The notes under the pieces: model-generated
What the model was told of the DNA's origin: nothing
The model's database searches: none
What the model saw: the letters and a program-made list of their open reading frames with translations, nothing else
Position numbers and translations under genes: made by a program
Source: Sordariomycetes sp. S80-01Y
Taxonomy: Eukaryota > Ascomycota > Sordariomycetes
Reading direction: 5' to 3'
DNA: 64,000 bases
Assembly (NCBI GenBank): GCA_037042185.1
Contig: JAXQJY010000030.1
Span: forward strand, 2,232,001-2,296,000
Shown here: positions 37,739 through 62,628 of the stretch, in pieces
Position numbering within the stretch: position 1 is the stretch's first letter
Layout of the letters: each line of letters opens with the position of its first letter

Positions 37739-39472
37739 GTGTCATAAGCCTCGAGTTGTCCGCGTCGCAATCATGCTCGTGCTCATGCTTTCGTGGGAAG
37801 GCTTCGATGAGCAGCAGGCGTGAGCCGGCGAGTGAGTCAATCGATATCAAAATGCGTTGCCGAGGAGCGCGCCCCTCGCTCGATTGTCGGGAACTCAACG
37901 CGTTCCCAAGGTGTTAGGTCCTTGGAGAGGCGCTTTGGAGGCTTGGGACAGGCCAGGTCGTGAATGAGGGTCCCGGAGCTTGCGTTCGTGATTCACCGCC
38001 AGTGGAAGTCGAAATATGGGAGTTCTGCAATTCGACTCGAGCAGGTTCCCCACGCTCCTGGCGAGCTACCTACCCTGCACCACAGTGCCCGCGCATCTGG
38101 TAATCCGCTGTTTTGCTGCAATTCAAGGCAATGATTTCGTAAGTTCATGTCTGGATGTTCATGATATGAATCCAGCTGAACGGTCCTTCTTCCCATTTTC
38201 AAGGTCACCGTACGGTTGCGAATGCTGCTTCGTGCAATAAATCACCAAGCTCACACCTTCCGGGACATTGTTTAGCTGTAGAACGATTGTAAGTTCAATA
38301 AATAGGACGAAGAGGTGCTAACTAAGGAAATAAATCGGCCTACTTCTAATACCGGGCTCAACAATACGGAAACGGCCACGATGTCGTGCAGTCTCGCATT
38401 GGAGCAAAGACAAGATCCAATATAGATCCTACACCAGCCCAAAAGCGAGGTCTGTCGAGCTGCCGACCCTCGTAGAAGCAAGCTGATTCCCGCCAGGTCA
38501 AACATGTTAGTGCTTCAGCCCTGCAGAGCTAGCACAGATGCTTCGCATCGATCGATTGCACCCTGCGTCTGCTGGCATAACTGGTCGATCACCTTGCTTA
38601 GACCAATACACGCATCCCGCGAACACAGACCTGCTCATCGAGCAATGACGAACCGTTGATGTGAAGACGCATTTGATCTGCAGTGAATCTTGCCGACAAC
38701 ACCTCGAGTGACCCCTACAAACCTCACAGAATAGATTGCAATGCGAAAGGGGTGTGCCAGTGTGACCCAGCACCGACCAGTGACGTCAATGGCCACCGAT
38801 GATCCCAACCAGGTGCACGACGAGTACTTCACGAGTTAGAGTTTGCTAGTCCAGTCACATTCCACCATCACACTCCCCAGAAAGACCCCGAAAGGCACGC
38901 GGGGTAGTGCTGTCAAATGCACTGGAGCCGGAGGCCGGGGGGCGCAGTCTAGCCTCCCTCCTAGGGGCCTCCAACCGGCAGTCTGCTGACCATATCCCCC
39001 CTATCAACCACCGTGAGTAAACCAACCAGAGACATCGTCTAGCAACTCCGAGCGTTCGTCGTCAGCCACGGGCCAAGCACCGCCCAGTTAGACCAGGTAC
39101 CACCCCAGAGTCGCGACTTGCAAGCATTGTCCGCGTACCCTCCCACACATGAGGCTATCTTACCCTGCCTTCCGGGGTCCAAGCACATTCCTTACCTTGC
39201 CTTACGTAGTCGTAGCTTCCAAAGTAACACTGGACGCCAGACGTCCTTGCTGACGTTTCCTTTTAGGTACTGGTCACGACCCCGCTGTCCAAGCCGCCCT
39301 GACTCCTCATCTTGCCTCCATCTCCAGTATATTAACCTGGCTCACCTCCCGTTCTCTACGTTGTGAACCTTCATCCCGCTTCTATCTGAAAGTGCCCTAT
39401 AGTTTATCAATACAACTTTGCTACATCCCCTCAGAATATCACCATCGGGCTCCCAGGGCAATACGATCCTCG
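37739..39472. other. 1.7-kb intergenic region
   Basis: It separates CCA1 (-) from a small plus-strand gene and so contains two divergent promoters. Short ORFs on both strands show no family character. The stretch 39120-39470 is C/T-rich and probably the leader of the small gene. Confidence 0.4.
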
Positions 39473-39787
39473 ATGTCGTCTCCCACGCAAGAACCAACCA
39501 TGGACTCACCTCCCACCATCCTCAGCGAGTCTCCTGTCGACGGCGTTAACAAGGACCGCAGGATGAGCGACGAGTGGGGTACGTTGTCCCTGCCGCTTCT
39601 TCCCTCTTGACCTTTGAATAAGACTGACCTCCCAAAAGATGCCTCGAAGGTGCCACCTAGCCGCTTTCAGAAGCGCAAGGGCTCGATATACGCCACCCCA
39701 AGCTCACGCGATGGCCACATCGACCGAAATTACCAGGACAAGTACCACGCAAAGATCGCCGAGAAGTATGGCGGAAAAGCGAAATAG
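39473..39787 (+). CDS. Small conserved-looking fungal protein, 84 aa
   Basis: Two exons, 39473-39578 and 39639-39787. The 60-nt intron (GTACGT donor, AAGACTGAC branch) makes the frame continuous. The first exon encodes a Ser/Thr/Pro-rich N-terminus with DKRMSDEW-like residues (NKDRRMSDEW). The second encodes SRFQKRKGSIYATPSSRDGH followed by a basic helix ending EKYGGKAK. I have a recollection of similar small proteins with the RFQKRKGSIYATP motif in Sordariomycetes, but no function is known to me. It is convergent with SYF1. Without the intron neither half would be recognised. Confidence 0.72.
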
Positions 39788-39950
39788 AAGGGTCGTACGA
39801 GGAGCGGACGTAGAGTATGATGTACCTGTAAACAAAGGGACAACGTTATCTTGATTTGAATTTAATGGATGCTTTCCTGTCCGTTCCCTATTTCAGATTC
39901 CAAGGCCGCCCATGCCAAATCTGCCCGTGATCCCTACTGTACATACATCA

Positions 39951-42459
39951 TCAATCATCAAGCCCATCAATGTCAATCGCATCGGGGTTTGATGGAGCTG
40001 GTGCGTTGGCGTTGGCGTCGACCTTGGGTCCCGAGCTCGCGGGCACGAAACCTTCTGGTGCCCGCAGTTTCTCCAAGGTGGCCATAGCATCTGTGCTGTC
40101 TCCGCTGGTGACACCTGCTGGACGCTGACTGCGAGCAAGGGCCTGCGATGCGATGAAGTTGACATCGGTATTGTACTGTGCCTGTACGCTTCGTTTGATG
40201 CGCAGCATTTCCTTGTATGTGTCCTCGTTCCCGTGTTGCACCTCAAATTGCTCCCATCTCGTCCAGAACTCGGGGTTGGTACGCGGATCGCAGAACTGCG
40301 AAGCGTGGCCGTAGATGGCGCGAGCTCGGTCGATTTCTCCGAGGCGTTTCTCCATCTCCGCAAACTTGAGGCACATCTCCTTGGCCTCGACGTCAGGCAG
40401 GACAGTGATGGCCCTTTCGTAGATGGGTCGGGTCGAAGGAAGACCAAAGTTGGATGCAGACTTGGTGATGTAAAAGTTGAACATATCGGCGCGGTCTTCA
40501 TCTGCAACGGCTCGTGTTGCTCTCTCGTAGATCCGCATCGCGTGGCGTGCCAGTCCTCGCTCCTCTTCTAAGTTGCCGTACATGAGATATATGGTCTTAG
40601 CGAACTTGGGGGGGCAATCTTCAACTGCCTGTTCAAAAAGGTCTCGTAGGCGCTCGATGCCAATTTTGCGGTCCACCGCCTTGGTCAGGTACATATTCCA
40701 GAGTTCGAAGGCGACTGGATAACTGAACAAGTCCAACCCCCTTTCGTAGACCTTGAATGACTCCTCGAAGTACTGGTGCTCCTCCAGAAGGTTAGAGTAG
40801 TTGACGACAGTCTGGGGTGTCGCAATGCGCAATTCGAATATGCGCTCATACACCTTCTTTGTCTCCTCCAATGTCGACACACTTTCTACAAGATCCACGT
40901 AGAAACTCCAAAGCTTCCAACTCTTGTGAACCCTTTGCTGGGGCGACAGGCTCTCGTCAAAGTAATCAACGTTGGAGCGTTTGGGTGCCTGAACCGCCTT
41001 GGCCATGATGCGAACTGCGTCGTCGAAGTTCTCGTTACGCAGCTCCATCTCTGCCCACTCAATCCACATGTCTGCGAGCTCAGCAACAGACTTGAACGGA
41101 ACCTTGACCGCCTTCTCCATGATGACACGGGCGTTCCGCAGATCGCCGCCCTTTTCATAGAATTTAGCATAGTTGGCCCAAAGCTGGTGGAAAGCGCCCA
41201 CAGCTCGCTTCGGATGTATGGCAGCAATGGCATCAGTGTAGGTGTTGACTACCTCTGTCTTGTTGTCGCCCCACAGTGCGACACGCTTTTCCCAGTCTGC
41301 AACGTTGTCCGGATTTTGCCGCAGGTGAACATCGTTAAGTAAGAATGGTCGTCTGTCGAGCAAATTCTCGTAGCGCATCATGCGAATGTCCAGGAGGAAG
41401 TCGGCGTCCTCGTCCACAACGCCGGCATTTTGACGTGCGTCCGCTTCTTGCAACAGGATGTTCGTGCTCTCTTCCTCAAAAGCAGTGTATGTGTCGTAAA
41501 TGAGCATGAAGTCTCGGACAGTCATGGCGGTTGTCATGCCCTCCTCTAATGCGTCCCTGGCCTTCCCAAAATTGCGTTTCGCACTCCAATAGTTTGCCAG
41601 GCCAACCCAAAGCTTGCCTCTCTGATCCGAAAAGCGCGCGATGCCGCTACGAATAATGCGCTCGGCGTCAATACCTGTATCATGACCGGTCTCGACTTCG
41701 GAGGCGTGGGTGACAAGTAGATCGACCATGTGGCTCCAAAGCTCAAAGTGTCCTTCCGCCTTCTTGCTGTGAAATTTCCTGTCGTTGAGGATGTCGATGT
41801 ACTTCCGTACAGCTTCAGTATACCGTCCCGTTGTGACCAGAAGCTCTATAAAGTCCTCGGCATCCTCGGGGTGAACCTGCATGTATCGCCGCCAAATCTT
41901 GACCGCTGTGGTACCTCCCGCCGAATCCGCAAATGGGCGATATAATGCCCATATCCGATTGTGTTGCGTAATGGGGAGCGCTCGTAGGGCCCGATCGAAA
42001 GTGCGACGTGCGAGAGTAACAACTGGTTGCTTCATGAGAAATTTCAGATACATTTCCCAGATCCTCGGCATCTTATTCAGCAGAATCAACGCGCGCTCGA
42101 AGAGCGCATTGACCTTGCGATATTCGGCGGCGAACATGGCAGGGTTGAGGGATCCGACATGTTTCATCCGGAAGGTCAGGTAGGCTTTCCACAGCTTGTA
42201 CGACCGAGGAAGCTGGACGCAGGCGCGCTCCATGATGAAGGCTTGTTCAAGGAGAGACCCATGACGAGCCTTGAAGTCGATATATGAAAGCCATGGCTTG
42301 ATACTGGCCGTGTCGCGAATAAGATCTTGCTCGTACACGGAATCTTCGTTCGTCTAGGTTTGTGGTCAGCGAATCGCAGAAACGAGGAGGCTTCAAACGG
42401 GAACATACCACCAGACCAAGGTCCGGGCGGCGAACAAGCGCACCGTTGGTCGCGGCCAT
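39951..42459 (-). CDS. SYF1: Pre-mRNA-splicing factor Syf1 (HAT-repeat protein)
   Basis: Two exons on the minus strand, 42459-42409 and 42353-39951, give 817 aa. The 55-nt intron (GTATGT, GCTGAC, CCTAG) joins a short N-terminus ending RRPDLGLV to TNEDSVYEQDLIRDTAS. Nearly the whole protein is built of HAT (half-a-TPR) repeats, seen as recurring W..Y..FE and A..IYERA patterns (WLSYIDFK, LWKAYLTFR, IWEMYLKFL, LWSFYVDLVES, LWNMYLTKA, FWTRWEQFE). The tail is acidic (AIDIDGLDD). Syf1 is a scaffold of the Prp19/NineTeen complex in the active spliceosome. Its length fits the family. It diverges from VMA8. Confidence 0.96.
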
Positions 42460-43045
42460 CGCTACTGTGACTATGAGTCGATTCGAGGCTCTTGGTTGGT
42501 GGACGGTTGCGCGATTCTGCAACGCTCGCCGGAGGAGTGGCAGCACTTAACTGCGGCTACGGAGAACAGCGCATCGTCTTCGAATAGACCGCAATCTTGG
42601 CAAGGAACGTGCCTTTGACTTTGGCGAGGGTCGAGCCGGGAGTTTGACGGGTGTAGCGCCTCTCGAAGTCCACACGCGACGCCCTCACAAAAGCATGAAT
42701 TCACAGTCGGGCGCTTCAAGCCGAGTGGCTGCGATTGGCGTTGGGCCAGCTCGGAATATCCATTTCCCGTCACATCGTCGTCGAAACTGGTGCGCCTTAG
42801 TTGCATGGCAGCCCCGCCAGGTTTTGCGGGTCCCGGCTTTGGGCAGTCGGAGCTCCGTCATCCAGGCATTGGTAGCGGGCTGCTGGGAAACATCGAGGCA
42901 TGCTTGTCGGGTATCGTGCTACTTGCCCTTGAAGCTTCACGCCGCTCCTATCGATACCATCCGCCTGCGTAACGCTTGCAATAGCCGAAACGTCGTCGAC
43001 ATCCCGATCACATAAAGCTATCACCTCGACCAACAACTAGCCGTC
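42460..43045. promoter_or_regulatory. Divergent promoter region, SYF1 (-) and VMA8 (+)
   Basis: 586 bp between two start codons. ORFs on both strands cross it but none has recognisable content. No clear TATA box is seen. Confidence 0.4.
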
Positions 43046-44109
43046 ATGTCTGGCGCCGGGGTAATACAGCTCTACTGTCTATCAATGCTGGGGGATGCCA
43101 ACTGATTGCTTCGATGTAGGACCGGGAGCCCGTCTTCCCCACGCGACAGTCGCTGGGAATCATGAAGGCGAAGCTCAAGGGCGCCGAGACTGGCCACAGT
43201 TTGTTGAAGAGGAAGAGTGAAGCCCTCACAAAGTAAGCATCGGCCCCTTACAACTACAGGGCATCCCAGACTAACGCAGCTCGCGTCTAGGCGTTTCCGA
43301 GGTCAGAAAGCATTCCAATCCCAATGACTCGAGATGAGTACTGACGGTACATCGGGCAGAGATCACGAGACGAATCGACGAAGCCAAGCGGAAGATGGGC
43401 AGGGTCATGCAGATCGCTGCTTTCTCTCTGGCGGAAGTCACATACGCTGTGGGAGGAGACATCGGATACCAAGTGCAGGAGTCAGCCAAGTCTGCTCGGT
43501 TCCGTCTTCGCACAAAGCAGGACAACGTCTCTGGTGTCCTGCTGCCTGCATTTGAGAGTTATCAGACTGAGGGTAACAACGACTTCGGTCTGACAGGTCT
43601 AGGCAAGGGTGGTCAGCAGGTGCAGAGGTGCCGAGAAACATATGCTCGTGCTGTCGAAGCACTGGTGGAGCTGGCGAGTTTGCAGACAGCCTTCGTAATC
43701 CTGGACGAAGTGATCAAGGTCGTTAATCGACGAGGTATGTATCGCCCTTGGAGCCAATCTGCATGTCGATGCTGACAACCACAGTGAATGCCATCGAACA
43801 CGTTATCATCCCTCGAACGGAGAATACTATCAAGTACATCAACTCAGAGCTTGATGAACTTGATCGTGAGGAGTTTTACAGGTTGAAGAAGGTAGATTGA
43901 CCACACCCTCCTGTGTCACAACGTGCATTGACAATGAGAAGGTCGCAAACAAGAAACAGCGCGACACAGCAGCTGCCGATGCCGAAATGAAAGCCAAGAG
44001 GGCAGCCCAGGCTGAGAAGGATGGCAAAGGCGCAGATGCCGGGGACGAGGACAGCAAGGGCACCACGGATCTGCTTGCGGCGGACGAAGACGAAGACATT
44101 ATTTTCTAA
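43046..44109 (+). CDS. VMA8: V-type H+-ATPase subunit D
   Basis: Six exons: 43046-43060, 43120-43232, 43291-43301, 43360-43734, 43785-43891 and 43942-44109, giving 262 aa. The third exon is only 11 nt. All introns are 50-59 nt with normal ends. The spliced protein starts MSGAGDREPVFPTRQSLGIM and runs through GAETGHSLLKRKSEALTKRF, REITRRIDEAKRKMG and RVNAIEHVIIPRTENTIKYI, diagnostic for subunit D. The protein is a long antiparallel coiled coil that forms the central rotor axle of the V1 sector, coupling ATP hydrolysis to proton pumping into vacuoles and Golgi. The tail is acidic and ends EDEDIIF. The gene is convergent with the U1A-like gene. Confidence 0.96.
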
Positions 44110-44294
44110 GGAAGACTCCTAACACCCTACCACTTATATGCCTGGATTGCGGAGGATATGGATTCCTATGAACCTGTACTATGCCGACAACCCCCCGAAT
44201 TAGTGTTGCTTCAGCGCTAAATAATCTTGGAGGCTATGTGGCCCTAATGTTCGTGATGGCGTTTGGTATTTCCCGTGACTCATTGTCCAGAAGA

Positions 44295-45130
44295 TCATTG
44301 GCGTTGGTATGTGACCTTGATAGCCTTGTCACCGAGAGTCATGCCAGCAGTGTTCTCCTTGGCCACGATTGCGCCTTGCTCAGCGTCGTACTCGACGAAG
44401 GCAATCCCAGCACGACCAGGCACAGTTCTGACCTCGCGGAAACCCTCGAAACGGCCAAATATTGTTGATAAAGCCTCCACATCATACTCAGCAGGAACGT
44501 TCTGCAGAAATAGGATCTTGTTCGGCGGCAAGTATTCGTCAGGGACGACTGCTGCTTGCGCGACGCTTGTCGACTTGAGTCCGCTCGGCTTGGCTGCCTT
44601 GGTAGGCCTATCATTACTTGGGCCACCGGGTCCGCGCTTGAGACCTCGTTGCTCTTCAGCCGTCTCGAGTGCTTTTCGTTGGTCTGAGATTGTCAGCACT
44701 GGCGCCTCCATCAAGATGGGCACGGCAAACATACCTTTCTCCGCAAGTCGGTGGCGCTTGTGCTGATCAAGCTCGTCCGCTGTGCCTTTTGTCTCTATTG
44801 TCTTGTCGCTCCGGCTGCGCGCCATTGCCACATGCATGGGTTTGTCGAAGAGCTGAAAGCCTTGAATCTCCTCGACGGCATCTTGGGCGCTCTGCGGGTC
44901 GTCAAAGACGACGAATGCTTGACCCTTGGCCTTGAGATTCTTCTTGGCGACAATGTCGATAACTTGGCCAAATTCGGAGAAGAGAGCTCTCAGTGACTCG
45001 ACCAAAGTCTCAACCTTGACGCGCTCCTCAAGATTCGACACGTAAACCCTGTTTCGGTGGTCAGCTTGTTCTACTCACGTAGCGTGTCGGAGTGCAATGA
45101 CACGCACGTGGATATAGGTGCTGAAGCCAT
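44295..45130 (-). CDS. U1A/U2B''-type snRNP protein with two RRMs
   Basis: Three exons on the minus strand, 45130-45108, 45048-44735 and 44683-44295, give 241 aa. The first intron (59 nt) restores the RNP2 motif VYVSNLEERV. The second (51 nt; GTATGT, GTGCTGAC, CTCAG) is divisible by three and has no stop, so reading through it adds 17 residues to the linker. RRM1 (about 8-88) contains GQAFVVFDDPQSAQDAV and FDKPMHVAMARSRSD, very like U1A/U2B''. RRM2 (about 160-241) contains KILFLQNVPAEY and GIAFVEYDAEQG. These proteins bind stem-loops of U1 or U2 snRNA. Fungi usually have a single gene of this type, so which snRNA it binds cannot be decided here. Confidence 0.93.
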
Positions 45131-47172
45131 CTTCAGAGCGTGGACCTCAAGCTCAGATTGTCGATGTTCGAGGTGGCTTGAGGGGCAAAAACATTGAGTC
45201 GTCCGAGTACGTGTACAAGCGGAACCCAGGTAATGATCTGAGGTGTTGAGGCGGGATGTGCGATGAAGGTAAATTCTTTGCGTGACCTGCGGCCCGTTTG
45301 GCGTCAGAGCTTGCTGGAGACCGCGACAGGAACACCAGGCGATCTCTGCAGCCAAGGTAACTCCATGTACCTCGAAGCGAAGGCCGATAGTGCGCTATTC
45401 AAGTAGCGGGTGTATGCGGTTATCAGCTACTTCGGCTTACTCATCACCTTATCAGTTCCCATTCCTACTGTATCCGATTCCAAAGAACTCGACGTCCACC
45501 ACCGAGATCCACGCTCGCAGTGCGACTGAAAGCGCGCAAAAATCCATGGGAAGTTCGATTGCGGGATGCCATCGAAACTCTATCGGCTGCGCGTCGACTG
45601 CGCGAATTGTTGAGGATGACCGTCGTCATAACCTGGTTCCGGATCGAGCTTTTGCAGCCTCCAAAAGAATTTCTGTTTCAAGGTGAACCTCTGTTCCGCC
45701 ATCAGGTTATCAGCGAGGATCTGGCCAAACAGAGGTCTTTGGCGGATTGTTCTACCGGCGTTCTGGGACCTTCAGACCGACAAGGGCAGGGCATTTGCCC
45801 TTTGGTGACGTCGATTTGTCTGGTTGTGGCTAGAAATTGTGTTCGACAACCCACACCAAGGCACCACCGCGTTGCGAGGGCTGATACACTCCCGGACGCC
45901 TCTGATTGCATGGCGCACGGATCTTTCCACAAGCAAGAAGATTTCTGACAGCCACTATCTCGACCAAGTGGGCCACGAGCTGCTAGACCTCAACCTCCGT
46001 TGCCTGGATGGCATGGATCTGCGCCGGCACATCCCCTTTAGGGTGCGAGTAGCCCCTGGATTTCAAGCAGCGGCAGCTTAGCAAAGGCTTGTCTTGCCCT
46101 CCTTCCTGTCTCTCAGGGCTCCGGCTGTGCGGTTTTCGGCCGACCAGGCTAAGCTGTGCTCCGTACGGTCTTTCCGGAATGTGCTTCCATTCCTGACTCG
46201 GCGTGGGGCCGATAAGATCGACGGCAGTGCGGCACCAAGTGGATCGTTTCGTTCCGTGCCTGGAGCTTATGGCCGTCGAGATGCGTCTGTGCTCCGGCTC
46301 CCGAGAGACGTCGTAGACGGGTCTTATCAGCACAAACCAAGCATCGAAAATGTGATTATGGATTCTTCAACTCCATCATGAAGCCTATCTTATGGCGCAA
46401 ACCTGCTCAGCGCAGGTTTCTACGTATTTGTCTCCATAGGTCAAACTTCACGCCATCCGGCGGCTGTAGGCCATTCCGACGAAACCTCCCTTGGTCCATC
46501 GCTTCACCGTTTCGTCTCCCTCCCTTTCGAGTAGACGATCTTTACCAAAGGCCTTCGGTAGAGCAGTGGATCGAACGGCTGTGGTCACCCTGCTGCGACG
46601 TGAGATGACCCCAACCGCATGATGTCCCGCGGGTGCGGATGGACTCGTGCCTGGCTGCTCCGTCCCTCACCATGGATCTCAGACATGTCTCAAGCGCCAT
46701 AACTCGGCTTGGCGTCCTTCGTCGAAGTTTCTCAATTCCCCTTCGAAAATCGGCTTTTGCACAAGTTATCTTGCCGGTCATCGAGATCGACACTCCTGAA
46801 TGCCCCTTCGAACCATCAAATTGCGGACCCGGGAAGCTGTCTAAGCTACGGCCCATTCTTTCACATGGCGAAACTGCAGTTGAAACGCTGGGAAGAACTC
46901 GATTTACTTTCTCGTTGGTATGTAGCCCGCAGGCGCGTGCGATCATCGATTAAATATGACGCGCTGGGCGATGTGGAACGAAATGCTGAGGCCGTATATC
47001 AATCAAACCAATTCTCCTGAATCTACTCACACAGCTGGCCAGATACACATTGTGCTCTGCTATCTCGAATACTTTTACCCCTTTCCCCCCTTCATTGGTC
47101 AGTCTTGATCACTCTTCTCTATGCTGGAGTGCGGTGTACCCTCTGTACCATTTGCCGCTAAAAGTATTGAGG
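45131..47172. other. 2-kb gap with coding-like fragments
   Basis: No complete gene could be built. Two plus-strand stretches look protein-like: 45520-45690 (NPWEVRLRDAIETLSAARRL) and, in another frame, 45810-46081 (FVWLWLEIVFDNPHQGTTAL, then LDQVGHELLDLNLRCLDGMD). They may be exons or remains of one gene, but no intron I tried keeps the frame throughout. The part from 46100 to 47172 has only weak ORFs and includes the promoter of the synthetase gene. Confidence 0.4.
45520..46081 (+). other. Possible unrecognised or decayed gene
   Basis: Two neighbouring open stretches in different frames have amino-acid composition typical of real proteins (Leu/Arg-rich helix, then a Trp/Leu-rich segment and an acidic/Leu segment) and end in a stop at 46079-46081. 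Between them a candidate intron, GTGAAC near 45683 to CCAAACAG near 45731, leads into a third frame that soon closes. No ATG is obvious at the 5' side. I do not recognise a family. Confidence 0.25.
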
Positions 47173-50100
47173 ATGGGCTCACACTCGACTTCGCAAGAGC
47201 TTTCAGCTCTTTGCCGTGAGCTTTACGATGGCCCAGTCTCTGAAGTAAAGAAGTGCAGACAATTCCTAGACTCTGATCTCGACAAAGGGCTGTTCCTCCG
47301 CTCCATCCCGGCACCCGCGGAGCCCTCTCACCGTCCTCTACACCTACTCTACATCGCCTTGTCACAACTTCCCGGAAAATGGCCGGTTTTCGAACTCATC
47401 ACATGCCACACCCGAGTTCTCAAGTACCTTCCAGAGACTGCGAAAAACGGCTCAAACGACGAGCTCGACTGGTTGCTCGAAGCGACGCAAGAGTTGGTCA
47501 AGAAATCATATCATGCATTCTCCGACTTTCTGCATGATGACAACCGGCTAGCTTTGACAACGACGAACCCTGAGAGCTATATTACACATCACGGTCTTCG
47601 GAAGTTCGTCGAAAGCCTCAGACTACCCGTACGCGAACCTTCATCCAAGCCTACTGTTGCCATTGCGGTCCCCAATGGGCCCCTGCTGGCCGCGACCGCC
47701 ATTGCGGTCACAACGTACTACACATCCGCCCCGATCAACCCAGCCGCAGGCGCTGAGCAATTTCGAGCAGATGTTCAGCAGTCTGGCGCCTCGTTCATCC
47801 TGACCACGGCTGAGGAGTATGAGAAGCTTCAAATACAGGCATGGGCTCAACCAAACGGCATCGATGTTTTCTTCGTTGAGTGGGACGGTCTCGATGGAAT
47901 TTCACTCTGCGACACCCACCACAAGCCGCTCGTAAGCTCACATGGCGAACGAAGCCCCAACAAGGCGGAGGACATCGGCTTGATTCTATTCACCAGCGGT
48001 ACCTCAGGTACCAAAAAGGTGGTGCCTCTGACGGTCCACTCGATCGTCGCGGGTATCGTTTTCGTGATAGACTCATGGGGCCTCACTACCTCCGATGTCT
48101 GCTTGAACATGATGCCGCTTTATCATGTGTAAGTGACTCTCCCTCACCTGATCAAAGAAAGTTACTCATCTGTTTCTAGAGGGGGTTTGGTCAGGAACAT
48201 CTTTGCGCCCATGTTCTCGGGTGGAACTACCGTCTGTTGCACAGCGTTCGACCCAAACACTTTCTGGGATGTAGTGCAAGATCTGCATCCTACTTGGTAT
48301 TATGCTTCGCCATCGATGCACTCGGTCATCTTGGCTGAAGCTGCAGCTCGTCCCGAGGCTTTGACGAAGAGCAAAATCAGACTGGCCTGCAATGCAGCCG
48401 GAGGCTTGTTGCCCTCATTAGCATGCCAACTGCGCGACACCTTCAACTGCGTCGTGCTTCCAAGTTACGGAATGACTGAGTAAGTTGATTGGCACTGTTC
48501 GTCACGTTCATCAAATTAACACGTCCTAGGTGCATGCCCATCTCAACACCCCCTCTTGATTACAAGCTTGATCGCGAGGGAACATCTGGTATCAGCACTG
48601 GTCCCGAATTGACGATTCTAGACTGGTCAGAAGATCATGTTGCCTCTGGAACAGTTGGAAGAATATGCGTCCGAGGCGAGCCAGTGTTCCCTGGTTATCT
48701 GAGACCGGATGGCACTTACGACAAGTCGCCTTTCAACCCTGCCGGTTGGTTCGACACTGGCGATCTCGGGTATATGGACGACGACGGCTATCTTTATATC
48801 ACAGGCCGCAGCAAAGAAGTCATTAACCGTGGAGGAGAGTTAATCTCCCCTTTCGAGGTAGAGAACGCTATCTTGTCGGCTGCCATGTCCACAGACTCTC
48901 CTGTCAGTGGCCGCATCACCCAAGTCTTGGCCTTCTCAGCTGTCCATGATGTTCTGCAGGAAGTCGTTGCCGTTGTTTTGGTCACCCCCCAGGGGGTACC
49001 AAGGGTTGATCTTAAGACACTCCACTCTGCTTTGCGCTCCTCGCTCCAGCAGGTGAAGTGGCCGGTCATGATCACTTACATGGACGACTTGCCCAAGAAG
49101 AACAACAAGGTTCTCCGCATCAAACTTGGGCAACGTCTGTCCCTGCCCACCCTTAACGACGACATGACCGCCCTGGCTCGCCACTGGGAGGCCAAGTGTC
49201 CGCCACCAGATACAGCTTTGACTGTCAATATTCCTGCGTCTCCATGCAAGATCGACGTCAAAAAGATCAACGCCGCCCTGGACGAGATCACACCTGCACA
49301 CTTGCGTCATTGCTACCGATCAGAGTTCACCCCTGGAGTCAATGCGCTTTTCATTGCCCCTGGGCGTTCTGAAAACGCCGCCGGGACTTGGTTAACCGAG
49401 GACATCAAGAGCAGCTTGGGCCGTGCAGTAGACAACTACATGCTACCTGATCACATTCACCTTATGCCTCAGCCTTTCACGCTCGACAACGCTGGTACTA
49501 TTGATGATATCCAGCTTCGTAAAGATCTCAATGAGCTCCAGAGCGCGTCTTTGGAAAAATTGGAGGGCTCCACCGAGGGACGAGTCACTAGGGCTTTTGC
49601 TGAGATCCTGTCTTGCCACCCTGACGATATTCCTCCCAATGTCGACTTCTTCAGCCTTGGCGGCGATTCTCTGAGGGCCGGAAAGCTGGTGTCCTTGTTG
49701 AGGTCAACGTTCGACGCGCCTATCTCCATCAGCCTCGTTTTCAATTCCGGCACAGTCAAAGCCATGGCAGCCCATATCGAGAGCGTTATCGGGGCCAATA
49801 GTTCTCCCGTTCAGGATAACGTGGCTGGCTGCACAGAGACACGCAATTCGACCAACCCATTCCTCATGATGGCCCAACTGCTTCCACTGGTTGTTTTCTA
49901 CCCAATGCGTCGGGCCCTGCAATGGACTATTTTCATTGTCGCTCTGAGCTATACACAGCACTGGTACACCAACGAGACAGTGGTCGGGCGCCTCTTCAAC
50001 TTGACCATGTCCATCATGTTCGCTCGTGTCGTTATCCGCTGTGTTGCCCCCTTCATTGGCATCCTCGCTAAATGGGTCATCATCGGTCGCTACCGCGAAG

Positions 50101-52340
50101 GCTTGTATCCCATGTGGGGGATGTACCACACTCGATGGTGGATGGTCGAGAAGATTGTCAGCATCTGTGGCAAAGGCTTCTTCAGCGCAACCGACTTCAC
50201 ACAACACCTCTACTATCGCATGATGGGTGCCAAGATTGGCAAGGGGGTGAAGCTTTCGGGCGTAGCTTTGGGCGAGTGGGACTTGGTGGACATCCGTGAT
50301 GGCGCAGTGCTCACTCGCTGCATGTGTCGTCCCTTCGCCGCCGAGGGCAACACTTCGATGTATCTCGGACGCATCGTGGTTGGGGAGAAAGCATTCGTTG
50401 GTGCTTCTTCAATAATCTCAGCCGGCTCTGAGATTCCTCCAAACACCTGTATTGGACCGAACTCATCCAGCTGGGAACTTGACGACGCTGACGAAGCAAA
50501 CCGTGATCTGTCTCCAAATGCGGCGCCGAAGCCGCATTGGCTCCTGACCCTGCTATTCACTATGCCCTTGGGCTTGATCGCATGGTTTGCTTCGATTCTT
50601 CCTTGGCTGGGTGGTCTTGTCGGTATGGTGATCCACCGGCCCCTGGACAGCCGTTCGCCTCTGCGAGATATTCTGGATTGGTTCACTGATCCCGAGCGAG
50701 TTGGATATCACTACCTCGCCTTGGTCCTCCGCTGCCTATTTGCTCCCTTCATTATCTTCGGTTTCACAGTTCTCGTCAAGGTCATCCTGGATCTGTTCTT
50801 CGGCAAGTTGACTGCTGGTCCCGCTCAGGGTCGTGGTGCCATTGCGATTTGGCGCGCAGCCTTGATCAAGACCTTGCTACCTGTGCCTCGACTACACGCA
50901 ATGACGACCATGTTCGGACAGCATTATGAGGCTACTTCTGTTGCAATCCGCATGCTCGGTGGCAAGATTGGTAAGCGGGTGTACTGGCCAGGAACTGGTC
51001 CTGGCATTGGCGACTATCATCTTCTTGACATTGGTGACGATGTCGTTTTCGGCTCAAGATCTCACCTTGTCACTTCCGATGGCACTGGATCCGAGAAGAT
51101 CACCATCGGCGACCGGGCCATGATTGCAGATCGTGTGTGCCTTCTGCCAGGTGTTGAGATCGGCGAAAAGGCTACCATGGGCTCGGGCGCGTTGACACGT
51201 AGAGGCAAGAAATATGCCCCAGACAGTACCTACGTGGGGTCCAAGGGTGGTGACGCAGTCTGCCTCTCGACCGGGCGCGACACGAGTTCTGAGAAGCCCC
51301 TGTTGTCGAGCCGGACGCCACACAATGGCAGTGAGGTAACGCTCACAGAGGAATACACTCACCCTAGAAGGGAGAGGCAGGACTCGCGGATGCGTCACAT
51401 GAGCAGCGACGAGACTCTCGCTGGTTCACGCAAAGCATCCAGTGCTGGCAAGCATCCATACAAGATGGGTGAGGGATCTTCTACTTCCGACGACGACAGT
51501 GATTACCAAAACTCTGAATCCAGCAATGACGCTTCACCCTTTGGCCGGGCATTCTACATGAACCTCGCGCCGTACCGTGTCATGGGACAGTTTTCCATCT
51601 TCTGCTACTCGGCCTTCATGACCGTCTTCACTGCTTTCTACTGGAACGTTCCCAATATCTCGTCGATTCAAATCGTGGACGCTATCATCCAGCATTTTGT
51701 TCCTGCGGATATTAATATGTGGTGGGATGTTCTGGCAATGTACTTGCTGACAACAATTGTCATTGCTATCCTCACGACAATCCAGGCTATCCTAGCGTTG
51801 GCCATCATTGTTGCCGCCAAATGGATCTTGCTTGGACGTCGTATGCCTGGCAATTACGATTGGGACAAGTCCCCCTACTGTCAACGTTGGCAGTTGTTCC
51901 TTTGTATTGAGAAGCTCAGGCGCAACTGCTACCGAAGCCATGGAATCCTTGGTTTTCTGACAGGAACTCAGTGGATTGTTCTATACTTCAAAGCACTCGG
52001 TGCGGACATTGGAAAGAACTGCGCACTGTTTGCAAACGGCCGCCCAAGTCTCATGTTTACGGAGCCGGACCTCATCAAGCTTGGTGAACGCGTCACTGTC
52101 GACGACGCTAGTGTCGTTGCCCACATCAACACTCGCGGCAAGTTTGATCTGAATAGGTTGGAAATTGGAGACAGATGCGTCTTGCGCAGCGGCAGCAGGT
52201 TGCTGAGCGGAGCGACGATGAAGGACGACAGCTGTCTCTTGGAGCACACTCTGATCATGGGAGGAGATGTGGTTGAGGAACGTTGGACCATGCAAGGTTG
52301 GCCCGCTGAGAGATTTACAGGAGTTCGTGTTAAGGAGTAG
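47173..52340 (+). CDS. Pls-like synthetase: adenylation, thiolation, then three membrane-anchored beta-helix domains
   Basis: Three exons, 47173-48128, 48180-48479 and 48530-52340, encode 1688 aa; introns are 51 and 50 nt. ATG 47173 (MGSHSTSQ) is the first ATG in frame. The adenylation domain shows LILFTSGTSGTKKVVPL (about 270), GMTE (about 416) and YLYITGRSKEVINRGGELIS (about 506). The carrier motif FFSLGGDSLRAGK (about 790) holds the phosphopantetheine Ser. Then come membrane pairs near 865-945, 1089-1176 and 1441-1522, each followed by a hexapeptide left-handed beta-helix domain (about 983-1085, 1226-1335, 1573-1688) opening with GAKIGKGV, GGKIGKRV or GADIGKNC. No condensation or thioesterase domain is present. 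This is the layout of epsilon-poly-L-lysine synthetase from Streptomyces and of fungal counterparts such as Epichloe VibA. The three helix domains are thought to form the chain-elongating chamber. Product identity is inference. Confidence 0.88.
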
Positions 52341-53940
52341 ATAAGAAGGTAAAGATGAGAAAAGATACGGGCATAGATTGGCACGAGGAAGGATACCTAA
52401 AAGTGCTACAGGATCTGGAAATTCTACTTAGTATAGGCACGCATAGCTAAGCATCCATCATTACTTTTACTAGAAGTCTTCTCATGCGTATTTTATGTGA
52501 TTTCGTCATATTAGAATAATCTCAAGTATCCCAAGTTGATTAATAGGGTACAAGCACATTGCAGGCAGTGTGATACGCATCGCCCACTTTTGTAGTATAG
52601 CAATCGCCCTCCACCGGGCTCATAGGTAACATGTTCCACCACAAGGTACCCACAATTGTGCCCTTATGGCTTTACATCCACAGGACACTTTGCGAACTGA
52701 TGTAGAAAACGGCTTATGACCTGGAGGTCTATTTCTCCGAGACGGTGTAATTACTACGCTGCTTTCTGTAATTTGGGTCAATCAAGGGCGAAAGACAGGG
52801 AACGTTCTACATACATCAGCAGCGAAAATGGAAGAGCCGTCCGTGGTTAGCGTAGCAATGTCATTCTCTCCAGAACGAGACTTGCTTCTCAAAGTCGATT
52901 ATGATGATGATTCCACCGCCCTCTTCGCCCCAGTTGTCTGCCGTGTTCACAAAATTGCAATCGGTGAGCTCATAAGGTCGGCCGGACCAGAGATAGAGTC
53001 GGTTAGGTAGCCATCATCTGCATCAGGGCATGGAGCATCCCATAAAAGGATAGTCCTGCATGAATCACGTTTAGATACACAGAAGCAATTGGCTGGCAGA
53101 CTTTGGAGAATAGGAAGGCATACTATCCCTCCACTTGCACGTGCAGACGTAACGAACTTGGCTTTGGCAAGGAGAGTTCCAGCAAGACGCATTGTGTTGG
53201 GGTGTTGAGACGTTCTCTAACGCATGTACAGAGGAGAAAGACTGGGGAGCAAAGACTGTGTCTAAGGCCTCTGATGTACTTTGGTGGATTTATTCCCTCC
53301 TCTTCATAGGATAGCATGACTGATTTATAACTCGTAGAGCGAACAGCTCGTTGTCTCTGGTTTGCAAAGGGACGTCACTTGTGCCCTTCCTCCTGATATC
53401 CACCCGGCTACATCAACATTCATGACGCTGGGTGCCGAACTGTCTGCGCCTCAGGGGCGTCGGCCGACTGGTCATTCGTTAGTCCCCAAGCGGCACGACC
53501 ACGAACTTGCATGATAGAAGCGATGTTGAGACGCCCGTTGAGGTCCATGTTTGCTACTCATCAATCAGCTTCACAGGAGGGAGAAAGGAAGAGATGATGA
53601 AAAGTCGACATGAGCAGTGTCGATTGTGAAGCCAAGGACTAAACAGGACGTTGCCTCAAGGGACGTGAAGATGGTTGCCAGGTGAAGTCGAGGCGAACCT
53701 CATGGATCACACCTTTGAGACGGTCTGATCAGTCATGTTATTTGCATATCAGACAACTTACCGGAGATGGTGACTACATTCCGCGTTGGCGCTGCCAAGC
53801 AATGTAAAGTGCCGTTGGATGGCATTGGGCTACGGCCGATACGGTGGCATATTAGCTCGCCACCATAAGTTGGCTCAACGCCCCCGCCCGTGGATTTTCC
53901 GGAAGATACTCAGCACCTCGCATCACTTTATCTATAATTG
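52341..53940. other. Transition zone after the synthetase gene
   Basis: 1.6 kb with mixed composition and no supported gene. ORFs of about 60 codons (for example 52828-53010) show no family character. The AT content rises along this stretch. Confidence 0.4.
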
Positions 53941-54011: not shown

Positions 54012-54137
54012 TGATCTAGCTGCTGTGATCTAGCTGCTGTAGTCTGGCTACTGTGGCCTAGCCGCTCTACTATGGCTACTATAGTCCAATTGCTGTGATC
54101 TAATTGCCTTGATCTGGCTACTATGGTCTGGCTACTT
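54012..54137 (+). repeat. 14-bp minisatellite, about nine units
   Basis: Nine consecutive 14-base units without gaps, consensus near TGATCTGGCTACTG. The first two units are identical (TGATCTAGCTGCTG); the others differ at several positions, mostly by transitions (A/G, C/T). Looser related units may extend a little on both sides. No coding role is apparent. Confidence 0.85.
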
Positions 54138-55978: not shown

Positions 55979-56092
55979 TTATCAGGACTTGGGTTGTTGA
56001 AGAGAGTGAGGAGGTGTAACTAGATGGGGCTCGCTGCTAGGTCCCAGCGTTGTAGCAGGATAATAGCTAGGGTGCGACTGGTGACTGTATTA
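55979..56092 (+). repeat. Dispersed repeat fragment, copy 1 (LTR-type fossil)
   Basis: About 115 bp related, at roughly 70 percent by eye, to 62510-62628 in the same orientation. Shared blocks include GCTGCT.GGTC.CAGCGT and ATAGTAGCTAGGG-like sequence. Copy 2 opens with TGTCAGGACC, a start often seen in fungal Ty3/Gypsy-type LTRs. Degraded fragment, no coding part recognised. Confidence 0.5.
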
Positions 56093-56541
56093 ATCTTTTA
56101 CTAAAAGATACTTATATAGCCATGGTGTTTATATATTAATAGTTAGAGACCTCTAAGCCACCCACTTTATTATAGATCTTTGTGGGCTAGTAATAGGTCA
56201 TTAATAATATCTATAATATGCTTAGCGTATATGATAAAATTAATATTATCAAGCCTATTAAGATATTAGTAAATTATAACTTCTTTTATATTTATAAGCT
56301 TTAAATTATAGCTAGGGCGGCCACCTTTAGATAAAATGCCACGAACCCACCGATAGAGGCGTTAATCGTGGTATATTGAATTTCTTTACGACCGTGGTAA
56401 CTAGAAACTTAGGATTTACTTTAAAGTATTTAATAATATTATCAATATATAGCTCGACCTTAGATATAGGCTTATTAGGCATAATGCGCGGTATATTGAT
56501 AATAATATTAATATTTATAGAAAACTGGCCGTTATATTGAT

Positions 56542-56598
56542 GTAGCCGTTATGGTGTTAAGCACCGCCTTAGTGGAGGTGGGGCGCGGCACGAGTATA
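56542..56598 (+). repeat. Inverted partial copy of the 55.3-55.7 kb LTR-like repeat
   Basis: 57 bases that match the reverse complement of 55633-55689 at 53 positions. After position 56598 the similarity stops, so this is a truncated copy. It lies in very AT-rich DNA. Confidence 0.7.
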
Positions 56599-59500
56599 GT
56601 CTTTAGCTCAGCTATACACCTTAATTATTTGTATTACCTTGAATTCGAGGTTTCGCTCCAACGAGATCATATGCACAAGAGCAGTCAGTTTTCTGCTGCG
56701 AAACGCAAATGCCGCCGGGGGTTTGAAAATTTGAATTGCACATATCCTAATGATGCTGTGGTAATAAGCAAGTTATCTTATATTTCTCACTTTCTGGTAT
56801 GGTATCGTAGAGAGAGAGGATCACGGGACTTGGGCAGTACCTCTCTAGTAAAAATGGCGAGGTCTCTGTAAGAACTGCCTGTCTGAACGTGTCTTAAATT
56901 CTTAGTATACTACTAACTGCACTTCTAACCCAATTGTCGCCACTACTACGCCATGAGCACAAGACTTCACAGACCTAGCCTAGATCATCCAGCAAGTGGT
57001 CTTAGTATTGCTTGCTCACCTTAGCAAGTGTATGCCGTAGTGATGAGGACAATGACAACGATTGTAATGTAATCGCAGTTTAATGTGCTTACAGGGAATC
57101 GCTACCATAAGGCCAGTTACTTCTCCCTTGGCAGACCTAGCCGGAGATTATTTGATAAATGAGGAAGTCGTATATCGCTTGAATAGGGCTGTTCAAGCTT
57201 CTTTATCATCACCAGAAACTTTGGTTTTCTTGAATGGGAGTTCAAGTACCCGTCCCTGTGGGGGATTTACTAGAAGTCCGAAGTTATGGGAACTCTTTTC
57301 CCTGTCTCTAACCTAAAGTATAGTGATACTAGGGAATAATAGAAAAAAGACATATTAATACAGAACGCCTATAGGAATTGTATTTCATACATACAGATTT
57401 AACCAGATCCAGAGTCTAGATATACCATGTGGATAACGATATTAAACCACGGTATAGCTACGTAGGTTTCCATTATAGGTGTAGAAAATGGGGAGTTAAA
57501 ATCGCACAGATGTGTATCTTCGCGCGACGTTCAACGAATAAGACATTCCGTAGCTATTTGTGCTCACCTAAATATGTTTAAGCTATGAGCAAAGATAAGT
57601 CCTCTATCCCTCCGCCCTAAAGGTACCAAGATATCCTGAATTTTTTTTCGTCATTGTCGTTTTTTGGCATATAAAATCAACACGTATATAATATTGAGTT
57701 CAGTACTTATGCGTTTCCATGGGCGGTTTACCGCACCATGCTACTAAGGGATTTATAATTTATTCATGCTATTCACAATAGGGAGTCTTGCTACAAATTA
57801 GGCACCGGGTCGGGGTATTAGTTATCTAAAGCTCTTTAGCTTTTCAACTGCTAGTGAATTAACCCTACTTTGACTTTTCTGATACTAAATAACTACTATA
57901 GCGACTACCATAGCGTGATGAGGATTTTCATTTTATGTATGTTTGTGCAATGAATAAAATACGAAAATAATGGCGAAATATACCCCGCAATAGTGGCGAA
58001 AAGTCTTCTAATCTCGTTGAATCGGGTATGTTCTGTGATTAGATCTATTTCAGCCCCTAAGGTACGTGCGCAAGCAAATTGACTTTTCCCCTTATCAAAA
58101 TATGTTAGCTAGCTTTTAGCGTTATAAGACTACACCAAAAAAAAAGTTTATTAATTATCCTGTAACTTAATAACTGGTGTGCGGCTCTCAATAGAATAGC
58201 GACTGGTTACTAGCGGTATAAGATTGTTACATTTATAGCAAAAGTTCTGGGATTTAGTACTAAGACTAAATACACAGAAAATAACCCGCATATGATGCGT
58301 AAATTCCAAATTCTGTGGATAAGATTACAGTAGATTTGTATATATCTTGAGATTGGTTCTTGTACTCTGAAGTGACTGCGTAGCCCAATGAGATCGATAT
58401 GAAATCTTGTCATTTCTTCTGGAACCCTCAAATGCACGATGTTCAAAATGAACGAAACTAGTAACATTAAATGGTAAGGCGGGAACTGCTAGAGTATTAT
58501 TAGTTGTTTTTCAATTCTAACCTTTAGCCTATGGAAATAGCTAAACTTCAAGTCGAATCACAATTTTCTTTCAATTAGACAGAAACCGTCGTGAGAAACG
58601 CCATGATCGAATTATCATGTTGTGGCTGGAAAATTGAGAGTATTCGGTCTTAGCAGGCTTTGGTCCTAAATGGTGAGGTAATTGACGGCATGAAGACTTA
58701 CGGCATTACAGTAATAATATGATCTGAACCTAGATCTAGTAGGGAAGTAAGAGCGGGAGTCAATCGTATAATATTCAACTAAGATATCTGCCTTTTGTCG
58801 TTCAAAGAAAACACCCACCCAAACTACATCGTATGCATTGTGCCGAGGAAAAGCGGGCCAGAGACTAGATCGCCGCTATACTCTATGCGTGGTAAATACA
58901 ATAACATGCTCAGTGCAACGCATATGGCGCTATAATTTAGGTATAGCCTTTAAGCAAACTACTTTGAGTGTGATATAGGCATTGGTCATCACGATCAGCT
59001 TATGCGCGTGGAAGCAACATATAACCATATTTGAACAGTTTATACAGACACAAAAAGATCCCAGCAATACGAATAGAATCATCTCTATACACCCGCAGTG
59101 ATACGAAGCATCTGATTGCTCGAGATCTATATCTTTGGGTCTAGATAATTGCTTTGCACTTGCCCACAACGACGGCAACGGACACATTTACAGGAACCTG
59201 GCGGAGCCCAGCCAATGGCACGAGACTGGCCCACATCTGAACTAGCACTATACTAGGATGCACGGAAACCTGCCACCGAAATGGTAGCGCTGAGGTTCTT
59301 CTATAGTTTCACCTAAAGTTGGTACAGCTAGAGGCTCTACAACGCGGTACGAAGTAGATAACAGCAGACTGTCAACATCGCATTCAACCGATGCAGTAGA
59401 GCTATATTTGGAAAGACGCTGCGAAATTCATCAACTGATATTCCTAATACGATATTCGCTCTATACCCTGGAAGCACGGGGGGGCCACCTTGTTGCCTCC

Positions 59501-60824
59501 CATTTATACAGCTATGGGCTTCCATCCATAACTGAGACCGAAATGGGAAAAGCATCTCCAGATACAAACTTTACACTTACCTCGACATTCCTATTTCAGA
59601 TATCGTGTACATTCTATCAGTAGATTCATAACGATCAGCTATTTCATTACTTGTACTGTCTCCGGAAAGACCTCGCTCTTGTAGATATCACCTGTGAACT
59701 CTTTTTAGTGAGAAATATTATTGTAAAGCCTGTTAGCATATATCTGCAGGTATGTTCAAGTCTACTTTTCGCCTCCTGTGTTATTGAAACGTGGAGTTAA
59801 TCGCAACTTCAACGGCAAAAATTCGTGTGAAGCTATTCAGGTCTTCAAAGTCCCCTACTACAGCGACTTTGTAGAGCTGGTCACTTAATCGAGCCACTGC
59901 TGGATGAATCTTGAATCATCTCTCTAAAGAAGCTGGTCTATTCAAACTTTGCTACGGATGGAAATGGTGTCATAATATCCAGGCATAACTGCACTGATCA
60001 GCCGACGAGACGTACGAATTGGCTTAATAGAATGCTCTGCTTTGTTCAGTATCCAATAAACATGCGTGGAGTGCTTCTTTCAGTAGCGTAAACGAGTGGT
60101 CTGTTCGGTCTTTTGCCCTCACTCCATCAGTCAATGGATCCCTGAAAATCATGATAAGCGGCAGTCTTTGAAACCAAGAATGTGATCTCTGAGGCCCAGA
60201 CGTGTATAGTAACCGTATTTTGTCTGTTTCAACGAGGTGCTGTTGTGTTTTGGGAGAGTATCAAGAAGCTTTTCATAGGCTTGCGTTCTCCTAGGTTATG
60301 CCGTAGATGATACTCATTTTTATACTTGTCTGCTCACCCACTGTATATATTGGTGCCAAACTTAGGATCAACGACTACAAAAGAGCGAGGACTTTATAAC
60401 ACAGCTGTGCCAAAATTCATTCCTCAGCTTCTTTCGATTTTGAGGCTCAAAAGGTGTATCTGTTATCCGGCTGGACATGGGAGCTTAACATTGAGAAAAC
60501 CAATGCATAATGACATGTTTAATAGGGACTAAGTCGTACAGCCATGACTACATTCACCTTAGGCTGCCATTTTCTGATGAAATTTATATCCTTTGAGTCA
60601 TTGAGAACCGCCCCATATTGACGTGTACGCTTACCCATACACAGCCATGAAGCTACTGTACACGAAATTAGTTAATTGCGAGCCCAAAGCCGTGAAAAGA
60701 TCGACCCCAAAATCTAGTAGGCGAGATTTACTTTCAGCACCTAGAGTATCACCATTTATACGATGCTCGGCTCCCTCTTATAATGCGAGCTCTGACCAGG
60801 ACTGCACATATCTGAGCCACGGCT

Positions 60825-60923
60825 TGAAACCACTGAAGACGGTGATGCAGGCCTAATAATCTCATAACTATGCTGACTCCATATGAGATTATTAGGCTTG
60901 CATCACCGCCTTCAGTGATTTCA
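60825..60923. repeat. Large near-perfect hairpin, 42-bp arms
   Basis: Arms 60825-60866 and 60882-60923 are inverted copies matching at 39 of 42 positions, separated by 15 bases. All three differences are transitions. As RNA it would fold into a long stem. No coding ORF is associated; the element may be a foldback or MITE remnant. Confidence 0.85.
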
Positions 60924-62509: not shown

Positions 62510-62628
62510 TTGTCAGGACCCGACTTGCTGGAAAATGTGAAGAGTTATAACTAAATATAGACCCGCTGCTGGGTCGCAGCGTAGTAGAGGGATAGTAGCT
62601 AGGGGGCAACTGGTCACTCAGTCGATAG
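62510..62628 (+). repeat. Dispersed repeat fragment, copy 2 (LTR-type fossil)
   Basis: Direct-orientation partner of 55979-56092, about 6.5 kb away. It begins TTGTCAGGACCCGAC. The distance would fit the two LTRs of one element, but no capsid or polymerase remains were recognised between them, so two independent fragments are equally possible. Old. Confidence 0.5.

Follow-up and report, generated by a model that had tools for sequence, protein, structure and literature searches.

A fungal gene joining an acyl-CoA-ligase-type adenylation domain to a Pls-type membrane polymerase half: a candidate polymalate-type polyester synthetase

We analysed a stretch of 64,000 nucleotides (the window) from contig JAXQJY010000030.1 of Sordariomycetes sp. 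S80-01Y, which carries a gene for a large synthetase of the layout known from the epsilon-poly-L-lysine synthetase Pls. The coding region lies on the + strand in three exons, from an ATG at 47173 to a TAG whose last base is 52340, and encodes 1688 residues in a coding sequence of 5067 bp, counting the stop. An earlier note on this DNA had placed the gene at the same coordinates, which the start and stop codons confirm; it did not mention the two introns that interrupt the frame. Both have the form GTAAGT...CTAG, and their removal rejoins the motifs PLYHVGGLVRN and YGMTECMPI. Since an alignment shows these motifs to be unbroken in bacterial homologues, the splice sites are supported.

The protein consists of an adenylation (A) domain, a carrier or thiolation (T) domain and a C-terminal membrane half. 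Four of the seven families that Pfam detects at E≤1 are weak; the others are AMP-binding (residues 160–476, 3e-49), PP-binding (3.6e-13) and Hexapep (9.6e-13). In agreement with the earlier note, neither a condensation nor a thioesterase family is detected at this threshold. The structure of residues 855–1688 (834 residues) was predicted with AlphaFold2 from a 35-row alignment, giving a mean predicted local distance difference test score (pLDDT) of 73.1 and a predicted template modelling score (pTM) of 0.79. In the model, three helix pairs are found at fragment residues 8–43/49–83, 235–266/286–322 and 585–621/629–665 (numbered from residue 855), each followed by short helices and then by the strands of a beta-helix. 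Fragment residues 471–583 are nearly all of low confidence. A Foldseek search of the PDB with this model returned six matches at E≤0.001 (best 9.3e-5, target TM score about 0.5), all of them hexapeptide acetyltransferases with a left-handed beta-helix or designed proteins based on one. The three repeats of two membrane segments plus a hexapeptide beta-helix that the earlier note had described are thus borne out. The layout, A-T followed by three units of two membrane helices and a left-handed beta-helix, is real and far beyond chance. It is also the layout of Pls and PosA: in excerpts of PMC10522769, PosA is predicted to be arranged in this way. (The papers cited here by PMC number are represented by excerpts.)

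The membrane half is clearly homologous to the Pls/PosA polymerases, as judged from a tree and the predicted fold, and the homology is also visible in the alignment. The Pls/PosA model TIGR02353 matches the window protein in four stretches (1.7e-59, 201.9 bits), below its curated cut-off of 423.1 bits; two classical full-length members score 626–773 bits. On plasmids, 48 records annotated Pls/PosA match, the best with at most 28% identity across 53% of the query, and PHROGs returned two weak families of unknown function. Among the best 60 of 70 PDB matches (E≤10) of a classical member, L003, no solved structure extends across the Pls C-terminal half. As a separate observation, a plasmid gene of Streptomyces sp. 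CdTB01 (L003, 3458–5995) encodes a complete Pls/PosA membrane half (823 bits) together with a region of carrier type; no adenylation model is among the best 25 of its 30 families, so loading would need a separate enzyme.

The A domain is of the acyl-CoA-ligase type and not of the amino-acid type, as observed in profile hidden Markov model (HMM) scores, a PDB search and a tree. Its best NCBIfam model is the FadD7 fatty acid-CoA ligase (226.6 bits over residues 127–609, short of that model's own cut-off of 650), whereas the amino-acid adenylation model scores 106 bits. In two classical Pls/PosA proteins the order is reversed, with 419 and 432 bits for the amino-acid model and 130 and 156 for FadD7. 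In the PDB, the domain comes closest to oxalyl-CoA synthetases: 6qjz is found at 6e-59, and at 3e-85 with a profile of the bacterial members. These nearest solved relatives, AAE3 and Pcs60 (6qjz, 5ie0, 8aff), have a PLFH-type motif in common with the window protein; the matched chains are single-domain ligases of 514–543 residues. Oxalate was considered as the substrate and not adopted. In alignments, the residues following PLxH and MTE, which we take to be significant in AAE3 and Pcs60, are unlike those of the window protein and its relatives, and oxalate is therefore not a safe guess.

The activation and polymerisation of a single amino acid, as proposed in the earlier note, is not supported by these scores, nor by the residues of the binding pocket. 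In PosA, Asp217 holds the alpha-amine and Glu221 the side-chain amine, and both are conserved in cationic homopolymer synthetases (PMC10522769, excerpt). In A-domain alignments made with three MAFFT modes, with identical counts, the Asp is present in 71 of 72 classical rows and the Glu in 71 of 72; an earlier whole-protein alignment had both together in 70 of 72. The window protein and its four closest bacterial relatives, described below, have Val (four proteins, including the window protein) or Ser (one) in the first column and Arg in the second (5/5; Arg324 in the window protein). A one-residue gap near these columns leaves their exact register to inference, and no alignment mode puts an acid at either site. 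From the alignments, then, both amine-binding residues are lost.

The bacterial relatives were found with the membrane half as query against the species collection of GTDB, keeping the best 80 of 302 relatives. Three stand far ahead: L005, from a Myxococcales metagenome-assembled genome (1e-61), and L006 and L007 from Novosphingobium (1e-55 and 1e-54), the next match being at 2e-24. All three align co-linearly with the window protein from end to end, with 34% identity overall and 41–42% in the A domain; other A domains reach at most 28% among the best 45 of 86 rows. A search within Novosphingobium added a third member from this genus (L089/L120). Over the whole protein, the window protein is 32.5–34.0% identical to the four bacterial members and 17.9–21.4% to 72 classical ones. 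L006 and L007 are near-copies (99% across A-T), so that the five clade rows amount to about four independent sequences.

An A-domain tree was built from the five clade members, 22 classical domains drawn at random from the 72, and 24 acyl-CoA synthetases from the genomes of the four bacterial members, the last picked by similarity to the window A domain and hence not a neutral sample. The new clade and the Pls domains each receive 100/100 support, and a 95/94 branch joins 23 of the 24 acyl-CoA synthetases with the clade. The clade is again recovered at 100/100 in a membrane-half tree (five clade and 33 classical rows), where the long-branch row L083 joins next to it. Such a gene is rare in bacteria. 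At E≤1e-150, the clade was found in 1/396 genomes drawn from the order, 1/377 from the phylum Myxococcota, 3/195 from the genus, 1/71 from the class, 1/398 from the phylum of G002 and 1/298 from the family; these draws overlap and centre on carriers. A plasmid search with L006 gave 18 records at E≤1e-40, none at 80% coverage, and a literature search, with subscription papers outside its range, found no account that describes a Pls-family member as having an acyl-CoA-ligase-type A domain.

Relatives of the A domain also occur on plasmids and viral contigs. Three plasmid neighbourhoods of free-standing ones were examined and are of mixed content; one is beside a tripartite tricarboxylate transporter, a setting too weak to use. 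On a Gemmobacter plasmid (L123, 5809–8430), an AMP-binding protein of about 873 residues is 37% identical to the A domain of the clade and longer than a plain ligase. Among 48 viral stretches that matched a sequence pattern, two encode a relative, both across the A domain only; a 356-kb IMG/VR contig (L122) carries an acyl-CoA-ligase-like stretch at 24% identity (1e-13).

An HMM built from the classical Pls A subdomain finds this subdomain a second time in all five clade members, in the stretch linking the A domain to the carrier. The four bacterial proteins score 29.1, 25.1, 23.9 and 20.2 bits here, and the window protein, the weakest, 10.1 bits; the maximum among 1000 shuffled pieces was 8.0 bits. 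In the full-length search, the second copy of the window protein is seen only through a model joined to the carrier (43.9 bits, residues 706–833). The motif-A10 lysine of the second copy is replaced by Thr, Ala or Glu in 5/5 members, whereas Lys612 of the first copy is retained in the four members aligned there. This degenerate subdomain is most simply read as a graft scar, left when an acyl-CoA ligase took the place of the A core in a Pls ancestor.

Changes are also found at the polymerase site, where the 72 classical and five clade proteins were compared. Three switches are complete (72/72 versus 5/5): Asp to Ser1261, Asn to Asp1286 and Glu to Thr1620. Three more are nearly so, Asn to Asp1610 (69/72 classical), Asp to Arg1621 (58/72) and Glu to Asp1665 (69/72). 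Glu1597 and His1617 are conserved in the clade and in classical Pls. The reaction centre thus seems, from these columns, to be kept but retuned, as would be expected if the acceptor were a hydroxyl instead of an amine.

Based on these observations, we favour, with moderate confidence, a polymalate-type polyester synthetase of Pls architecture, in which the amino-acid-activating domain has been replaced by one of acyl-CoA-ligase type. The front end is probably suited to an organic acid, with malic acid the likeliest, and the product would probably be an acidic polyester and not an amino-acid polymer. Malate lacks an amine and has two carboxylates, and so fits the A domain seen here. In the proposed mechanism, the carboxylic acid adenylated by the A domain would lack an alpha-amine and would most likely be L-malate, whose second carboxylate would lie close to Arg324. 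The acyl group would then pass to a phosphopantetheine arm on Ser799, in the GGDS motif. The pseudo-trimeric membrane beta-helix domain, predicted to have an acyltransferase fold, would condense the carrier-bound acyl group with the hydroxyl of the next unit or of the growing chain, and the polyester, probably beta-poly-L-malate, would be released without a thioesterase.

The proposal draws on the polymalate (PMA) synthetase of Aureobasidium melanogenum and A. pullulans (QHD40385.1; Wang et al. 2020, in excerpt). That enzyme is likewise fungal, has about 1680 residues (coding sequence 5049 versus 5067 bp here), A-like, T and C-like domains and six transmembrane segments, and no thioesterase. 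For A. melanogenum, PMC9210645 describes an adenylation domain forming malyl-AMP, a thiolation and a condensation domain, and PMC11905612 an NRPS-like (nonribosomal peptide synthetase-like) protein with domains named A-like, T and C-like, both in excerpt. Deletion of the A. melanogenum gene is reportedly without effect on growth (PMC9210645, PMC11905612), and an A. pullulans deletion strain is reported to be free of PMA (PMC9909216, excerpt). Fungal cationic homopolymer synthetases, by comparison, have fewer than 1500 residues in the account of PMC10522769. The phosphopantetheinyl-transferase gene found after the homologue in 3/3 Novosphingobium loci also counts in favour of the proposal. TmpL, an AMP-binding/transmembrane protein of filamentous fungi (PMC2766074, excerpt), was considered and rejected; it is not this protein.

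Several points weigh against this assignment. The likeness to QHD40385.1 is one of size and described layout. The excerpt of PMC9210645 puts the six transmembrane segments of polymalate synthetase in its N-terminal part, whereas all six predicted helices of the window protein are in the C-terminal half (the review's wording may be loose); for A. pullulans, it gives a malyl-CoA route with an unknown polymerase. Malate is a proposed substrate, and the role given to Arg324 comes from sequence alignment alone. One of the 24 ordinary acyl-CoA synthetases also has an Arg in that column. One of these 24 (L104) falls with Pls in the A-domain tree, and long branches were flagged by the program. An AlphaFold2 model of the A domain (L006, three-row alignment) reached a mean pLDDT of 34 and a pTM of 0.25 and was not used. 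The second-subdomain score of the window protein barely exceeds the shuffles. Finally, the gene setting of polymalate synthetase is not reproduced at the fungal locus. As to Crz1 control, the motif GNGGCKCA, which we take to be of Crz1 type, has no match in 38946–53445, and its 17 matches in the whole window versus 23.1 expected are at chance level.

A synthetase of the same mechanism could instead polymerise another monomer that is not an alpha-amino acid (a hydroxy, dicarboxylic, beta-amino or omega-amino acid) into an unreported polyester or polyamide. The evidence from the A domain and the C-terminal sites applies equally to such a monomer, and at about 33–34% identity between the window protein and the four bacterial members, substrates may differ inside the clade. 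A metal-binding secreted product would also suit the TonB-dependent receptors near the gene in 3/3 Novosphingobium loci. We regard this as possible but doubtful: in the excerpted literature, polymalate is the sole product found for enzymes comparable in size and layout. It is also conceivable that the protein is a membrane acyltransferase acting in a single turnover, in which the T domain holds the activated acid and the beta-helix domain hands it over once, to an acceptor such as a lipid or a glycan. The nearest solved folds are indeed O-acetyltransferases that move one acyl group, and five sites conserved in classical polymerases are changed, two of them in beta-helix 3. With Glu1597 and His1617 retained, and with polymerases as the nearest membrane-half relatives of known function (PMC10522769, excerpt), we consider a single transfer improbable.

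The amino-acid-activating, isopeptide-forming homopolymer synthetase of the Pls or cationic homopolyamino acid (CHPA) type, put forward in the earlier note, shares the architecture and membrane-half homology; with both amine-binding residues missing, an acyl-CoA-ligase-type A domain, a separate clade in both trees and a TIGR02353 score under the cut-off, it is very improbable. What stands of the comparison with epsilon-poly-L-lysine synthetase is the domain layout and the homology of the membrane half. The window protein has in common with Pls, PosA and the fungal Epls the A-T plus three TM-pair/beta-helix layout, the carrier serine, Glu1597 and His1617, and differs in its type of A domain, the lost Asp and Glu, the extra degenerate subdomain and the altered C-terminal sites. 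The earlier note had asked whether the protein would group with acyl-CoA synthetase fusions lacking polymerase relatives. The A domain does sit with acyl-CoA synthetases; the C-terminal units are predicted to fold as beta-helices, and this half has polymerase relatives. VibA, which the note had proposed for a comparison of pocket residues, is a transcription factor; among fungi, the synthetase that has been characterised is Epls (PMC7179176, excerpt).

Extending the polymalate-type reading to the whole clade leads to a more tentative proposal, to which we give slightly less than even chances. A cross-kingdom chimaeric clade would have arisen when an acyl-CoA ligase displaced the Pls A domain, turning a polymerase of isopeptide-linked polycations into one of polyanionic polyesters. 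The Novosphingobium and Myxococcota members would then make polymalate or another polyester, perhaps moved across the outer membrane or binding metal. A phosphopantetheinyl-transferase gene directly follows the homologue in 3/3 Novosphingobium loci, and at the L120 locus a PepSY_TM protein and a two-component pair are encoded as well. The Myxococcales contig ends soon downstream, where the scanned frame has no Pfam match; SnoaL-like and LysR-type genes lie upstream. Just upstream of the Novosphingobium homologues are frames of 815, 818 and 898 residues without Pfam match (L006 1–2445, L007 1–2454, L120 12337–15030), which by eye look like outer-membrane receptors.

At the fungal locus, 19 of 43 frames of at least 170 residues were scanned. 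The 14 with a Pfam match are all of housekeeping type, including apyrase, Nudix, Elp4-type, tRNA endonuclease, RING, RNase PH, Anp1, Sec7, Sac-domain, Tti2, CCA-type polymerase, Syf1 and RRM proteins. A biosynthetic cluster around the gene was rejected on these grounds, and none of these 14 points to tailoring, transport or regulation within a cluster. The spliceosome neighbour Syf1 (39954–42353, - strand) matches PDB 9l5r, a Chaetomium structure, with 1429 bits, the next chain scoring 818, which makes a filamentous ascomycete likely as the source. Genes are sparse beyond 52.4 kb of the window, and the sequence is AT-rich from about 56 kb on. Positions 56000–64000, directly downstream of the gene's flank, have a GC content of 0.38–0.42 versus 0.49–0.58 elsewhere and may be a decayed repeat region or a chromosome-end region. 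At 60816–60930, two near-complementary copies of about 40 bases (GCCTAATAATCTCATA / ATGAGATTATTAGGC core) form a possible hairpin, seen by eye. Short imperfect tandem repeats of 14 and 28 bases lie at 54012–54080, with a poly-G run near 54280.

Table 1. Features of the synthetase gene in the window (aa, amino acids; ORF, open reading frame; TM, transmembrane).
Feature	Position	Strand	Basis
Exon 1, aa 1–318 and two bases of codon 319	47173..48128	+	ORF and GTAAGT donor
Intron 1, 51 nt	48129..48179	+	GTAAGT...CTAG; PLYHVGGLVRN rejoined
Exon 2	48180..48479	+	ORF
Intron 2, 50 nt	48480..48529	+	GTAAGT...CCTAG; YGMTECMPI rejoined
Exon 3, through stop codon	48530..52340	+	ORF
Acyl-CoA-ligase-type adenylation domain with its own C-terminal subdomain, aa 127–620, both introns within	47551..49133	+	Pfam, FadD7 model, 6qjz, tree
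Arg324, column of PosA Glu221 (side-chain amine binder)	48193..48195	+	Three alignment modes agree
Linker holding degenerate second NRPS-type A subdomain, aa 640–768	49191..49577	+	Pls A-subdomain HMM
Carrier (thiolation) domain	49581..49778	+	PP-binding 3.6e-13
Ser799, serine of GGDS in carrier domain	49668..49670	+	Invariant in clade and classical Pls alike
Membrane polymerase half, Pls/PosA type, aa 855–1688	49836..52337	+	TIGR02353 1.7e-59; AlphaFold2 pTM 0.79
TM helix pair 1	49857..50084	+	AlphaFold2
Beta-helix 1, limits approximate	50223..50483	+	AlphaFold2
TM helix pair 2	50538..50801	+	AlphaFold2
Beta-helix 2, limits approximate; contains Ser1261, Asp1286	50961..51215	+	AlphaFold2, alignment
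Low-confidence insertion, mostly absent in bacterial relatives	51246..51584	+	AlphaFold2; alignment gap
TM helix pair 3	51588..51830	+	AlphaFold2
Beta-helix 3, limits approximate; contains Glu1597, His1617, Thr1620	51999..52280	+	AlphaFold2, alignment

If the polymalate-type assignment is correct, the fungal polymalate synthetase would belong to the Pls family, its front end having been exchanged. The analysis would then provide a predicted fold and candidate active-site residues for it, neither of which we found in the excerpts of the polymalate synthetase literature searched, and a simple rule would follow: an amine-binding Asp/Glu pair for polycations, Val/Arg for acidic polyesters. The bacterial homologues, from small genomes and with an adjacent phosphopantetheinyl transferase, would be usable for expression. 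According to the excerpt of PMC9210645, attempts at identifying the polymalate synthetase of Physarum failed; the motifs of the clade would offer a way to look for it.

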